In this document: piece after piece, positions 32,357-36,138 of the stretch
How the letters are laid out: the number at the start of each line of letters is the position of its first letter
How positions within the stretch are numbered: the first letter of the stretch is position 1
NCBI RefSeq assembly: GCF_000425585.1
Contig: NZ_AUDS01000010.1
Coordinates: forward strand, 62,001-126,000
Source: Terrimonas ferruginea DSM 30193
GTDB taxonomy: Bacteria > Bacteroidota > Bacteroidia > Chitinophagales > Chitinophagaceae
Reading direction: 5' to 3'
Length of the DNA stretch: 64,000 nucleotides
The notes under the pieces: generated by a model
What the model was told of the DNA's origin: nothing
Database searches by the model: none
What the model saw: only the letters and a program-made list of their open reading frames with translations
Program-made: the position numbers and the translations under genes

Positions 32357-34060
32357 TCACTTCAATCTTCTCGCCAACACCACGGCCTTCTTGCTATGCT
32401 GCCTCCGGCCTTCCAGATCAAACCATTCCACATATACGATATACTGACCTACGGGTAAAGGCTGCATCCGCTGATCCAGTCCATCCCATTTCCAACAGCC
32501 TTGTATTCCCATCGTCTCATTCCTTACCAGGTGCCGCACTTTAATTCCCGTACCATCGAACAGGTACACATTTGCAACCGAACCGGGTTCCGGTAATTGA
32601 TAACAGATTTGCAACAGATCCTGCCATCCATCCTGATCTGGTGAGAATATTTCCGTGTCGAGCGTGATTTGCGCGTCGCCGGCTGTCATACTCAAACGCT
32701 GTTGCGAATTGACATAACCCGGTGTGCCATAACCCGCTGTTGATGCCGCCGAATGCCAGTTGTTTTGCTCACCCGCTGGTCTGTCCGGCGACAACCGCTC
32801 TAACGCCACACCTTTGTATTCGCTCAGCAAGGCGAAGTGCCATTTTTCCTCATAATTCAATTCTTCCAATATCAGTCCCTGCTCATCGAGCAACAACACC
32901 GTGCCTTTGTCATTGGGATAGGAGGGGAGCGACGATAGCTGTTGTATCGCACTTTTATTTCGTACCACATAGTGACGTTCCATTGCTTCCACATCTGTGG
33001 TAAATACATGGTAATCTCCCGGAAAGAATGGCCGGTTGACCGCCGACAGCCTGATCATATTCGCTGTTTGTCCGCTGCTGTTGCGGTTAGCCAGGTACAG
33101 CGCCGACATATCAATAATATGATCGCTGTTGTTATATAGCTCTACATAATCCTGCCCGCCAGACCGCGGATTGAAAAGTATCTCATTCAATACAACGTCT
33201 CCTTTTTGTATGGCTGTGGCGTTTCCCGTGCGGGTGCTTTGTTCCGTAAGCAGGTTGCCCGCGCAGTCAGGAATATTACGAACACGCAGGTTATATGTTT
33301 TTCCCTCTTCCATTGATCCTGTAATAAAAAGAACCGCCTGGTCAAACAAGGGCGGCGTTATTTCCGCCCGCGTTATGGTGTATCCTTCTATGTGGTAGTT
33401 GTCCGTCGAACCTGCGTGAAAACTATCAACCGGTTCATTGAACCGCACATGTATTTGGTTGCTGCCAAAGGCTATCGACCATAACACCTGCGGTGGTAAT
33501 TCATCCAGGGTTATGCCTTGCACCGCATTGCGCTGCCCGGGCGTACCGCCAATAGACGCGGTGCTCGCTGTCCAGTTGCCCGGGCCCTGGCAAGGCTTAT
33601 CCGGATCAATAATCTCCAGGGTCCATCCTCCTTCTTTCTTCAAAGAAGAGCCATACCACGCCACATCATATCTTACCGAATGTAGGGTAATGCCTGCCGC
33701 ATTCTTTATCACGATCAGGTCTCCGTCGTTGTCAAGCGAAGGAAAGGATGTAACGCCGAGTGCATTACCATATACACGCAAAGCCGACGCCGCAGCGGAC
33801 GATCCTATCAATACGTAAGCGCCTGCTGCCAGTTGATAGGCCGGAAGCGCATTGCTTGTGCCGGCGGCATCACTTATCCTCATGCCGGCGAGTTCAATGC
33901 TGTGATCGCTTCTGTTATAAAGTTCTATCCATTCATAAGATGGCAGCCCTACCGATGGAGCAGGATCGGCCATAATCTCGGATATGACCAGGTCGTATCG
34001 CTGGGCTGTGCAGGAAAATACGAACGTTAGCAGTAAAAGAATAAAACACAAGCGTCTCAT
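32357..34060 (-). CDS. Secreted lamin-tail-domain protein with C-terminal FlgD/CHU_C-like domain
   Basis: 567 residues. The N-terminus RRLCFILLLLTFVFSCTAQ is a signal peptide, possibly with a lipobox at FSC. Two lamin-tail-like (LTD) domains are visible: ISEIMADPAP.. YEWIELYNRSD (residues about 25-170) and LNEILFNPRSGGQDYVELYN (about 290-410). The C-terminal 90 residues (EIFSPDQDGWQDLLQICYQL, GQYIVYVEWFDLEGR) resemble FlgD-Ig-like/gliding-motility C-terminal domains. Such proteins are usual cell-surface proteins of Bacteroidota; function unknown. Confidence 0.8.
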   Translation of the reverse strand: MRRLCFILLLLTFVFSCTAQRYDLVISEIMADPAPSVGLPSYEWIELYNRSDHSIELAGMRISDAAGTSNALPAYQLAAGAYVLIGSSAAASALRVYGNALGVTSFPSLDNDGDLIVIKNAAGITLHSVRYDVAWYGSSLKKEGGWTLEIIDPDKPCQGPGNWTASTASIGGTPGQRNAVQGITLDELPPQVLWSIAFGSNQIHVRFNEPVDSFHAGSTDNYHIEGYTITRAEITPPLFDQAVLFITGSMEEGKTYNLRVRNIPDCAGNLLTEQSTRTGNATAIQKGDVVLNEILFNPRSGGQDYVELYNNSDHIIDMSALYLANRNSSGQTANMIRLSAVNRPFFPGDYHVFTTDVEAMERHYVVRNKSAIQQLSSLPSYPNDKGTVLLLDEQGLILEELNYEEKWHFALLSEYKGVALERLSPDRPAGEQNNWHSAASTAGYGTPGYVNSQQRLSMTAGDAQITLDTEIFSPDQDGWQDLLQICYQLPEPGSVANVYLFDGTGIKVRHLVRNETMGIQGCWKWDGLDQRMQPLPVGQYIVYVEWFDLEGRRQHSKKAVVLARRLK

Positions 34061-34132
34061 AACAATGTCTCTTTGCTACACCTGCAAAATAGTATAGTGA
34101 GGAGCCGAAGCAATGAGAAAAGAACTGAATAA

Positions 34133-34164
34133 TTTGGTGTAAATAATGCCAACGCTTATTTTTA
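34133..34164 (+). promoter_or_regulatory. Candidate promoter for asd leader transcript
   Basis: TTTG at 34133-34136 and TATTTTTA at 34157-34164 (seven of the eight TAnnTTTG positions, G replaced by A) are 20 nt apart, the spacing typical of Bacteroidota housekeeping promoters. Transcription would start near 34170, at or just before the leader ORF. Confidence 0.5.
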
Positions 34165-34169
34165 CATCC

Positions 34170-34214
34170 ATGATTATTATGAAACATACAAAACGCACGA
34201 AGAAGCTTTCATAG
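34170..34214 (+). CDS. Putative attenuator leader peptide for asd (14 aa)
   Basis: ATG at 34170 to TAG at 34212-34214 encodes MIIMKHTKRTKKLS. Ten of 14 residues are Lys (4), Thr (2), Met (2) and Ile (2), exactly the amino acids made through aspartate semialdehyde, the product of the downstream asd gene. A second ATG at 34179 gives MKHTKRTKKLS and may be the true start if transcription begins near 34170. Too short for routine gene finders. Translation is not proven; the support is the coincidence of composition, position and RNA folds. Confidence 0.6.
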   Translation: MIIMKHTKRTKKLS

Positions 34215-34289
34215 GAAGGTTTGCAGCGTTCTGTATGTCATCAGCATAAAAAATGTAGCAGGCCTTCCAAGTGGAAGGCCTCTTTTTTT
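34185..34289 (+). promoter_or_regulatory. Transcription attenuator upstream of asd
   Basis: Three helices can be drawn. Protector: 34185-34196 with 34226-34237 (CATACA and ACGC pair with TGTATG and GCGT around a 2x2 internal loop); its 5' arm lies in the leader ORF. Antiterminator: 34214-34224 (GGAAGGTTTGC) with 34258-34268 (GCAGGCCTTCC), 11 pairs including two G-U. Terminator: 34260-34268 with 34273-34281, a perfect 9-bp stem with AAGT loop, then C and seven T to 34289. Antiterminator and terminator share 34260-34268 and exclude each other. A ribosome on the stop codon would mask the antiterminator strand; one stalled early in the leader would break the protector and allow readthrough. The model is inference from pairing. 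Confidence 0.65.
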
Positions 34290-34362
34290 GCCGCATGATG
34301 ATCGTTCTTTAAAACTATTTTTAAACAAAACACTTCTTGCAGAAAGAAGCGAGGACACAACC

Positions 34363-35352
34363 ATGAAAGTCGCAGTCGTCGGCGCCACCGGTCTGGTAGG
34401 CACCAAAATGTTACAGGTATTGGCAGAAAGAAATTTCCCGGTATCCGAACTCTTACCGGTAGCTTCAGAAAAATCAGTGGGTAAGGAAATCACCTTCCGT
34501 GATAAAACGTATAAGGTGGTAAGCATGACGGATGCCATTGCCGCGAAGCCTGATGTGGCTTTGTTCTCAGCTGGTGGCAGTACTTCGCTGGAATGGGCTC
34601 CCCGTTTTGCAGAAGCAGGTATCACGGTGATTGATAACTCGTCTGCCTGGCGCATGGATCCGGCCCGTCCGCTGATCGTGCCCGAGATCAATGCTGATAT
34701 TCTTACAGCGGATGACAAGATCATCGCCAATCCCAATTGTTCTACGATCCAGATGGTCGTTGCGCTAAATCCGCTGCACAAACGCTATGGTATTAAGCGC
34801 GTGGTCGTGTCTACTTACCAGAGTGTGACCGGCACTGGCGTGAAAGCAGTTACACAGCTCGAAAACGAACGCAAAGGTGTATCCGGAGAAATGGCTTACA
34901 AGTATCCCATCGACCTCAACGTGATTCCGCAGATCGATGTATTCCTCGACAATGGCTATACCAAAGAGGAAATGAAGATGGTGCTTGAGACAAAAAAGAT
35001 CATGCGTGATGATAATATCCGCGTTACGTCCACTACCGTGCGTATTCCGGTTATGGGCGGCCACAGTGAAAGTGTGAACGTGGAATTTGCGCAGGACTTC
35101 GATCTTGCGGAACTGCGATCATTACTCGAAGCTGCGCCCGGCGTAGTGGTAACAGATGACATTGCCAATCAGTTGTACCCGATGCCCAAAGATGCGCATG
35201 AAAAAGATGAAGTATTTGTGGGCCGTCTCCGCCGCGATGAGACGCAGGAAAATACCCTCAACATGTGGATCGTTTCCGACAACCTGCGGAAAGGTGCTGC
35301 TACAAATGCGGTGCAGATCGCGGAGTACCTGACGGAAAAAGGTTTGCTTTAA
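34363..35352 (+). CDS. asd: Aspartate-semialdehyde dehydrogenase
   Basis: 329 residues from ATG 34363; an in-frame extension to 34288 runs into the terminator and is not coding. NADP-binding MKVAVVGATGLVGTKMLQVL, catalytic Cys126 in NPNCSTIQ, and His234 in GGHSESVNVEF are all present. It reduces aspartyl phosphate to aspartate semialdehyde, the branch point to Lys (and diaminopimelate), Thr, Met and Ile. The candidate attenuator directly upstream has a leader enriched in those amino acids. Confidence 0.95.
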   Translation: MKVAVVGATGLVGTKMLQVLAERNFPVSELLPVASEKSVGKEITFRDKTYKVVSMTDAIAAKPDVALFSAGGSTSLEWAPRFAEAGITVIDNSSAWRMDPARPLIVPEINADILTADDKIIANPNCSTIQMVVALNPLHKRYGIKRVVVSTYQSVTGTGVKAVTQLENERKGVSGEMAYKYPIDLNVIPQIDVFLDNGYTKEEMKMVLETKKIMRDDNIRVTSTTVRIPVMGGHSESVNVEFAQDFDLAELRSLLEAAPGVVVTDDIANQLYPMPKDAHEKDEVFVGRLRRDETQENTLNMWIVSDNLRKGAATNAVQIAEYLTEKGLL

Positions 35353-35364
35353 GGCAAACCTTTT
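35337..35364 (+). terminator. Hairpin overlapping the asd stop codon
   Basis: AAAAGGTTTGC (35337-35347) pairs with GCAAACCTTTT (35354-35364) around TTTAAG, 11 bp. The stop codon TAA sits in the loop. The T-rich 3' arm could act as a terminator. Confidence 0.55.
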
Positions 35365-35408
35365 AATTAGCCAATTTGATGATTTGACAATTTGAAAGTG
35401 GCGATAGC

Positions 35409-35438
35409 AAAAAGCTTTCCTGATCGGGAAAGCTTTTT
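35409..35438. terminator. Bidirectional terminator between convergent genes
   Basis: AAAAAGCTTTCC (35409-35420) pairs with GGAAAGCTTTTT (35427-35438), 12 bp with a 6-nt loop. A/T tracts on both sides allow function on both strands, serving asd and the convergent DUF2461 gene. Confidence 0.75.
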
Positions 35439-35472
35439 TATTGTCTAATTATCAAATTTTCAAATTAGCCGA

Positions 35473-36138
35473 TCAGCTCTGCATCGCCTCATTCAGAAAA
35501 GTATTCAACGGCTGAATGGCTTCAAAGGCCGCGACGACCTTTTTGGCCAGATCCGGAGAAGAAAGATCTTCATCGGGTATATCGACCATGGCAACAAAAC
35601 TTTTCAGTTTCAGGTATTCTGCCGCAGGGTTGTCGGCTTCGTATCCTTTGGGTACTCGACTCAGCGCGTCTTCCCTGGAAAGCTCACCAAAGAGCGATTG
35701 AAATTTCTTCGATTCCACTATTTTTTTAAAGGCAGGCAGATTATAATCGATCTCCTGGCGGATTTTAGCGAGCTCGGCTGGCTGCGGCTGCCACACGCCT
35801 CCGCCGGCGAAGGATTTTTTGCCTGGCTCCATGTGAAAGTAATAACCCGCCAGCGTCGACTTCTTGCCTCCCTGGTTGATACTGGCGGCAAAATTCTTTT
35901 TGTAAGGCGTTTTGTCTTTGGCAAAGCGGATGTCGCGGTTGATGCGGAACATACAGTTCTTACCGATCTGATCGCTGATCAACGGATCTTTTTTGCTGTG
36001 CTTGCGGATGATCTCATCAATCAAAGCTGCGAAGTCCTGCCGCGATGCTTCGTATATCGAACGGTTTTTGTCAAACCACGGCTTGTTGTTATTTTTCTGA
36101 AGATCCCTGAGGAACTTAATGGTTTCTTTCTGAAGCAT
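35473..36138 (-). CDS. DUF2461 family protein
   Basis: 221 residues. Family features: FLRDLQKNNNKPWFDKNR near the N-terminus, then FRINRDIRFAKDKTPYKKNF and GGGVWQPQPAELAKIRQEI. Biochemical function is not known to me. Its upstream gap carries TTTTGA- and TATTCAC-type repeats. Confidence 0.88.
   Translation of the reverse strand: MLQKETIKFLRDLQKNNNKPWFDKNRSIYEASRQDFAALIDEIIRKHSKKDPLISDQIGKNCMFRINRDIRFAKDKTPYKKNFAASINQGGKKSTLAGYYFHMEPGKKSFAGGGVWQPQPAELAKIRQEIDYNLPAFKKIVESKKFQSLFGELSREDALSRVPKGYEADNPAAEYLKLKSFVAMVDIPDEDLSSPDLAKKVVAAFEAIQPLNTFLNEAMQS

Follow-up and report, generated by a model that had tools for sequence, protein, structure and literature searches.

The asd gene of Terrimonas ferruginea is very likely controlled by a ribosome-mediated attenuator that senses the charging of Lys-tRNA and Thr-tRNA. 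The basis for this conclusion is the layout of the region before asd, its conservation, helix covariation, the composition of the leader peptide and folding around a masked ribosome. From these we infer the start site of the leader, its translation, the stalling and termination events and the response to amino acids.

The leader region of asd

The window, a stretch of 64,000 nucleotides, is part of contig 6 in a 4.69-Mb genome; the features under study are listed in Table 1. The long ORF preceding asd (32357-34060) lies on the opposite strand and reads away from the attenuator site, so that no other transcript is seen in the window for the terminator of the asd leader to end. The promoter that the first-pass annotation had placed just upstream of the leader is present, and its elements, TTTG and TATTTTTA separated by 20 nt, are of the Bacteroidota type. 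A sigma-70 scan of the asd leader region returned no site on the + strand. The recomputed ORF has the 14 codons reported earlier (34170-34214) and encodes MIIMKHTKRTKKLS; on recounting, ten of the 14 residues are indeed Lys, Thr, Met or Ile (K4, T2, M2, I2). His and Arg codons are also present in the sensing stretch.

Table 1. Features of the asd leader region, in window positions.
Feature	Position	Strand	Basis
-33 promoter element TTTG, Bacteroidota sigma-A type	34133..34136	+	sequence
-7 promoter element TATTTTTA, 5/6 of consensus TAnnTTTG	34157..34164	+	sequence; consensus from PMC9723704
Predicted transcription start; leader 5' UTR of 0-2 nt	34168..34170	+	inferred from position of -7 box
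Leader ORF MIIMKHTKRTKKLS, 14 codons, stop TAG at 34212-34214	34170..34214	+	sequence, recomputed ORF; leaders of relatives
Protector helix, 5' arm (leader codons His6-Arg9 and preceding base)	34184..34196	+	folding, covariation
Antiterminator, 5' strand; begins at last base of leader stop codon	34214..34224	+	fold; permutation test in relatives
Protector helix, 3' arm; also supplies inner stems of antiterminator	34226..34238	+	folding, covariation
Inner antiterminator partners with conserved CATAA element (34244-34248 with 34234-34238, 34252-34256 with 34226-34230)	34244..34256	+	fold
Antiterminator, 3' strand; 34260-34268 common to terminator	34258..34268	+	fold; permutation test in relatives
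Intrinsic terminator (stem 34260-34268 with 34273-34281, T7 34283-34289)	34260..34289	+	fold; covariation in relatives
asd, aspartate-semialdehyde dehydrogenase, controlled gene	34363..35352	+	TIGR01296, 438 bits vs cut-off 324.2

The three helices described in the first-pass annotation were all recovered. In the protector (34185-34196 with 34226-34237), which can be extended to 34184-34238, 11 of 12 positions pair and 34191/34231 is a mismatch. Eleven pairs, including two U-G, make up the antiterminator (34214-34224 with 34258-34268); the terminator has nine perfect pairs followed by T7 (-16.8 kcal/mol) and is the only terminator-like site on the + strand within 34060-34400. Since bases 34260-34268 are shared, antiterminator and terminator exclude each other, as had been claimed. 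The region therefore has the make-up of an attenuator, with a mutually exclusive antiterminator and intrinsic terminator, and with a short ORF, rich in codons for products of the pathway, between the promoter and the terminator. The fold of 34155-34295 has a z of -4.55, and none of 200 shuffles is equally stable.

The antiterminator helix is also the outer stem of a longer hairpin: 34213-34268 alone folds with 21 pairs at -24.2 kcal/mol (z -6.53). In this extended hairpin, the 3' arm of the protector pairs with the downstream CATAA element, which recurs among relatives. The predicted extended antiterminator, a new feature of the model, would thus account for the conservation of CATAA, which is otherwise unexplained.

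Conservation and covariation in Chitinophagaceae

The asd gene is present in 186 of 195 family genomes. From the 150 matches listed of these 186, we examined 147 asd upstream regions, comprising 30 loci (the window's own included) and a further 117; G106, G121 and G150 were excluded as partial or near contig ends. The layout rule applied to them has four requirements (protector, antiterminator, terminator and a short ORF with an ATG start) and takes no account of amino acids. Its thresholds were fixed after viewing the sequences under laxer rules, one of which ranked ORFs by K/T/R/H content, and the nulls were run with identical thresholds. The rule holds for 110 of the 147 regions, compared with 0 of 1470 dinucleotide shuffles of the same regions and 2 of the 147 opposite strands; these shuffles, and the permutations below, ignore the relatedness of the genomes. 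One match, L292 (MIFKPVSMNLLA), was dropped as a chance match, and the helices whose conservation in relatives had been proposed as a check are accordingly found, as a layout, before asd in 109 of 147 family genomes. Among the 37 rule-negative regions, ten show a leader by eye (L004, L023, L025, L195, L197, L221, L237, L259, L260, L261), 26 have none by rule or by eye, and L263 is doubtful.

In a plain MAFFT alignment of 45 leaders, RNAalifold recovered four terminator pairs only and no protector. The leaders are of two length classes and the alignment slipped; model R1 was therefore built from 16 leaders of one length class. R1 matches six of the ten leaders found by eye. At E up to 0.001 it matches 99 of 100 leader-bearing sources, the sole miss being L197; these sources are the loci as far as L258 in which the rule or inspection by eye had shown a leader, excluding L028, L203, L243, L247, L248, L250 and L256. 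At E up to 0.1, matches occur in 152 of 195 family genomes, a count raised by leaders of hisG and dapA and by some chance matches. In the order-wide scan, 56 of 298 genomes are matched at E up to 0.001, 55 of them within the family; the one outside, G343, looks like the terminator at the end of a gene. Nine of 60 named loci (L052-L111) pass the rule: leaders are clear in L060, L063, L074, L095 and L101 and plausible in L065, and the matches in L064 (Pedobacter), L072 (Sediminibacterium MAG) and L098 (Flavobacterium), which have no Lys/Thr leader, were judged to be chance. No locus in this set labelled Mucilaginibacter, Sphingobacterium, Polaribacter, Algoriphagus, Dyadobacter or Hymenobacter passes. 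On present sampling, the attenuator appears to be confined to Chitinophagaceae.

Across the alignment of 16 leaders, standard pairs fill 96.2% of the pair cells, and none of 500 shuffles attains the covariation score; pairs changed on both sides number 4, which 29 of 500 shuffles reach. In an alignment of 99 model-fitted sequences, which leans towards the modelled helices, both-side changes are seen in 10 of 11 protector pairs and 8 of 9 terminator pairs, each helix with a covariation score above all 500 shuffles. A gapless permutation test of the protector gave 2 of 5000. The antiterminator, absent from the model, is 92% paired by columns and no better than shuffles: 31 of 500 reach its covariation score and 490 of 500 its number of both-side changes. 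Hence, an alignment-free permutation test was added, in which, among the 109 rule matches, the antiterminator strand fits the terminator arm of its own genome better than foreign arms (18.1 vs 16.3, sd 0.23, 0 of 5000 permutations). Because this set was chosen partly by having an antiterminator, the test was repeated on the 99 R1 matches, most of whose sources had passed the layout rule as well, with a similar preference for the own arm (17.6 vs 15.7, sd 0.23, 0 of 5000). Examples of such strand and arm pairs are CCTTCTC with GAGAAGG (L026) and CCTTTCC with GGAAAGG (L192). The covariation check suggested in the first-pass annotation thus comes out positive, with protector and terminator covarying and the antiterminator strand matching its own terminator arm.

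Antiterminator and terminator have the same mean energy (-17.5 kcal/mol), which is what a switch needs. In 109 relatives, the inner antiterminator structure is more stable than with its inner letters shuffled (mean z -1.28, standard error 0.11).

Ribosome position and the codons of the leader

We propose a transcription start no more than about 2 nt from the leader AUG. When translation is undelayed, the ribosome would reach the stop codon at 34212-34214 and cover 34214-34224; with the antiterminator strand covered, the terminator would form and RNA polymerase would halt near 34289. When charged Lys-tRNA or Thr-tRNA is scarce, the ribosome would stall at Lys/Thr codons 5, 7, 8, 10 or 11, keeping the protector arm open and leaving the RNA from 34214 on free. 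The long antiterminator hairpin (34214-34268) could then form, and asd would be transcribed. With no ribosome, the protector would form first and the terminator would win in the full-length RNA.

Masked equilibrium folding of the window leader, which assumes a ribosome footprint reaching 12 nt upstream and 15 nt downstream of the first P-site base, gives the terminator 0.99-1.00 without a ribosome or with a ribosome at the stop, and the antiterminator 0.92-1.00 for stalls at codons 4, 5, 7, 8, 10 and 11. A stall at Lys12 leads mostly to the terminator (0.94), with footprint edges that are uncertain by a few nt. At equilibrium, RNA that ends at 34270 and carries no ribosome favours the antiterminator; for an untranslated leader, the off state would therefore depend on the protector folding first. 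Together with the geometry, these model-based folds indicate that a stalled ribosome frees the antiterminator strand and a ribosome at the stop masks it, Lys12 being the exception.

The same geometry is seen in the relatives. In 106 of 109 leaders, 60% or more of the antiterminator strand lies under a ribosome at the stop, where about 80 are expected since the layout rule searched near the stop only. At least three Lys/Thr codons are placed so as to open the protector and spare the antiterminator strand when stalled in 107 of 109. The strand begins at the end of the stop codon (-2 to +3 nt) in 38 leaders and 9-18 nt before the stop in 69, with two elsewhere; in the larger class the strand is thus itself coding, often for ...EGV or ...EGA. 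A ribosome at the stop codon masks the strand in both classes. Leaders L006, L013, L020 and L026 are examples of the two.

Across relatives, the main excess in the asd leaders is in Lys and Thr, each at about twice background: Lys is 0.241 vs 0.110 and Thr 0.122 vs 0.057 in other short ORFs of the same regions. The enrichment that the first-pass annotation had asked for in relatives is therefore present, in leaders collected by a rule without an amino-acid criterion. Of the four end products it had named as sensed by the leader codons, Lys and Thr stand, Met is weak (0.050 vs 0.021), and Ile, though sought, is not enriched (0.094 vs 0.089). The Lys/Thr excess remains when only codons that lie in neither the protector arm nor the antiterminator strand are counted (K 0.245, T 0.101). 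The leaders end in all three stops (TAA, TGA and TAG), and in the 71 of 109 that share a core motif, which itself fixes two Lys, third codon positions are the most variable (0.39 vs 0.12 and 0.22). In L003 (G001), the only other genome of the window's genus, the leader is kept with one extra in-frame core codon (MITMMHTTKRIKKRS), as expected under selection on the reading frame.

R1 also matches leaders before other genes. Eighteen are His-rich (His 0.35), and 16 of these have a hisG-like ORF next; the other two counted as hisG, L151 and L153, directly precede a different ORF. A further nine stand before dapA and are asd-like (e.g. MQLIKKHTKRVKKHSVYREG), with Lys at 0.243 and Thr at background (0.059); part of this resemblance is owed to the search, since the model had been trained on asd leaders. 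Gene checks with TIGR00674 and TIGR00070, for loci common to both sets, cover one dapA and two hisG, and the remaining dapA and hisG names are putative, assigned by likeness. In the hisG regions of 13 genomes, a clear His-rich ORF was seen by eye in 12, L350 being weaker. The window genome carries one before hisG on contig 9 (L355), with the His-rich leader MFNNTHIHHHFLHSRKP, a -7 box 7 nt upstream and a terminator before hisG. The dapA leaders are patchy: 20 of 22 dapA loci of relatives are readable at the gene start, and one (L335) has a leader by eye; at dapA of the window genome (L332), no leader lies within the 300 nt examined.

Leaders before hisG are thus rich in His and those before dapA carry Lys without Thr, so that the leader codons appear to follow the product of the downstream gene. 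We consider this codon match, as read from the sequences, the strongest argument for tRNA sensing. Further R1 matches are Lys/Leu-rich leaders in genus g50, at L159 and L165 (MTNTKLYKGLKKLAAR; MVIKKLHKELKRLAAGRPQ), before ORFs that we take to be aspartokinase-like and aminotransferase-like.

The codon match also bears on whether the leader could be a general sensor of translation, with any slowing of the ribosome (shortage of His or Arg, antibiotics) inducing asd without specificity for Lys or Thr. Every codon tested from 4 to 11 gives the antiterminator when stalled, Arg is present in the leader, and His is enriched (0.063 vs 0.026 in other short ORFs of the same regions). However, the hisG and dapA sister leaders carry different, pathway-matched codons, and at the position of Thr10 the 71 core-motif leaders have Thr in 43 cases, using all four Thr codons, and Ile in 17, which makes a general sensor improbable. 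Less probable still is a switch worked by a metabolite riboswitch or an RNA-binding protein, with an incidental ORF. In its favour, the alternative hairpins are stable and conserved, and the L-box riboswitch controls lysine genes in other bacteria (PMC1262725). Against it, the ORF is kept with three different stops and variable third positions, its composition tracks the downstream pathway, and in 107 of 109 leaders the stop occupies either of two fixed positions with respect to the antiterminator strand. Furthermore, the covariance models of Rfam release 15 (leaders, riboswitches, the asd motif, Bacteroid-trp and others) gave no match at the gathering threshold in 20 loci; within 33000-35600 of the window there are four sub-threshold matches only, that at the asd leader being Phe_leader with 26.6 bits vs 55. 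Finally, an ordinary terminator or insulator with a short ORF arisen by chance, which would suit a region between divergent ORFs in the window, is hardly credible, given a layout absent from all shuffles but kept in 109 of 147 genomes, and given that no other + strand transcript needing the terminator is seen in the window. In some relatives (e.g. L043, L047) the upstream gene is co-oriented with asd, and the terminator could end that transcript too.

Near-leaderless starts and relation to known systems

In 91 of 109 asd leaders, 4-10 nt separate the best -7 box from the leader ATG. These leaders appear nearly leaderless, which is a new point. Their predicted 5' UTR is about 0-6 nt (1 nt in the window), and six others have about 28-32 nt. 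A strong promoter (TTTG followed at 16-24 nt by a -7 box with 5/6 matches or more) is found in 96 of the 109 leaders vs 13 of 545 shuffles, and in 81 of the 96 it stands 4-10 nt before the ATG (2 of 545 shuffles). At asd starts of two sets of loci taken as lacking the leader, a strong promoter occurs in 5 of 50 and 4 of 20, at 4-10 nt in 2 and 1. The spacing of 4-10 nt recurs in 15 of 18 hisG leaders and all nine dapA leaders. In the window's genome at large, promoters 4-10 nt before an ATG are not enriched (20 pattern matches vs 20 in the control), and this search gave no further attenuator.

Bacteroidota are described as lacking Shine-Dalgarno sequences. The chances are about even that the asd, dapA and hisG leaders represent a reusable Chitinophagaceae cassette, copied between genes and recoded (Lys and Thr for asd, Lys for dapA, His for hisG), near-leaderless by design and with lysine sensed by leader codons. 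The cassette would consist of the promoter, the almost leaderless ORF, the protector, the antiterminator strand abutting the stop codon, and the terminator. If so, the near-leaderless start would load a ribosome as the transcript emerges.

Ribosome-mediated attenuation is a classical mechanism; a new element here is the probable reading of lysine through leader codons. In enteric bacteria, the Thr/Ile-rich thrL leader precedes thrABC, with an alternative antiterminator and terminator. The asd leader resembles it in having a leader rich in aspartate-branch residues, alternative hairpins and an aspartate-family target, but differs in using Lys and Thr before asd, in its near-leaderless start and in having no Rfam match at threshold. 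The Bacteroid-trp motif is a trp attenuator with Trp codons, and thus concerns another gene and another amino acid; it gives no match at threshold here. The trpL leader of Sinorhizobium meliloti likewise uses Trp codons and has trpE(G) as its target in another phylum, while resembling the asd leader, which is predicted to be near-leaderless, in having a leaderless attenuator peptide.

The trpL mRNA of S. meliloti begins with the ATG of the leader peptide (PMC7298713). Bacteroid-trp (RF01692) is listed as a candidate cis-regulatory RNA of Bacteroidetes, and the asd RNA motif (RF01732) of Lactobacillales is named for asd (PMC2864571); the latter belongs to another phylum and does not match our leader at threshold. 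In the same phylum there are the leader-peptide candidates of Flavobacterium psychrophilum, where 'strong clues' for leader-peptide attenuation before amino-acid biosynthesis operons are mentioned, the -7 box spans -12 to -5 and 5.5% of mRNAs are leaderless (PMC9723704). Upstream of asd in Flavobacterium frigidimaris (L098), no clear Lys/Thr leader was seen. For Bacteroides thetaiotaomicron, short ORFs 'reminiscent of leader peptides' are noted, and 3.7% of 5' UTRs are under 10 nt (PMC7366714). A 2010 survey has leader-peptide systems shown until then only in Proteobacteria and Actinobacteria, the ermC leader aside, to which it adds Firmicutes (PMC2965389). Among the matches listed from a literature library that lacks most subscription papers, no description of a Lys/Thr leader before asd or of Chitinophagaceae attenuators was found; the survey of bacterial attenuation by Lopatovskaya and others (2010) could hold part of it.

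In other species, threonine and histidine are under attenuators and lysine is under the L-box riboswitch (2005, PMC1262725). If the asd attenuator operates as proposed, lysine would join the amino acids read via leader codons, a task of the L-box elsewhere, and the branch point to lysine, threonine, methionine and isoleucine would have a simple account of its control in a family of Bacteroidota. It would also suggest that attenuation can operate on nearly leaderless messages, and would offer recodable sensors for bacteria poor in genetic parts.

Two further observations concern neighbouring subjects. Short Thr/Ile-rich ORFs stand before a long aspartokinase gene on contig 11 of the window genome, G000 (L363), and in relatives (L364-L368, L370, L373, L375), where the long open frame has 816-892 aa, except for 353 in L375. 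A small hairpin (aacccGCTAAgggtt) has the end of the short ORF (e.g. MAFVSTYTTTTTTITTR, L364) within its loop or next to it; no T-run was seen, and the arrangement is possibly another, different attenuator. Lastly, two tandem hairpins, both terminator-like, lie 3' of asd at 35337-35364 and about 35406-35438, spanned by a Phe_leader match below threshold; the asd stop codon sits in the loop of the first.
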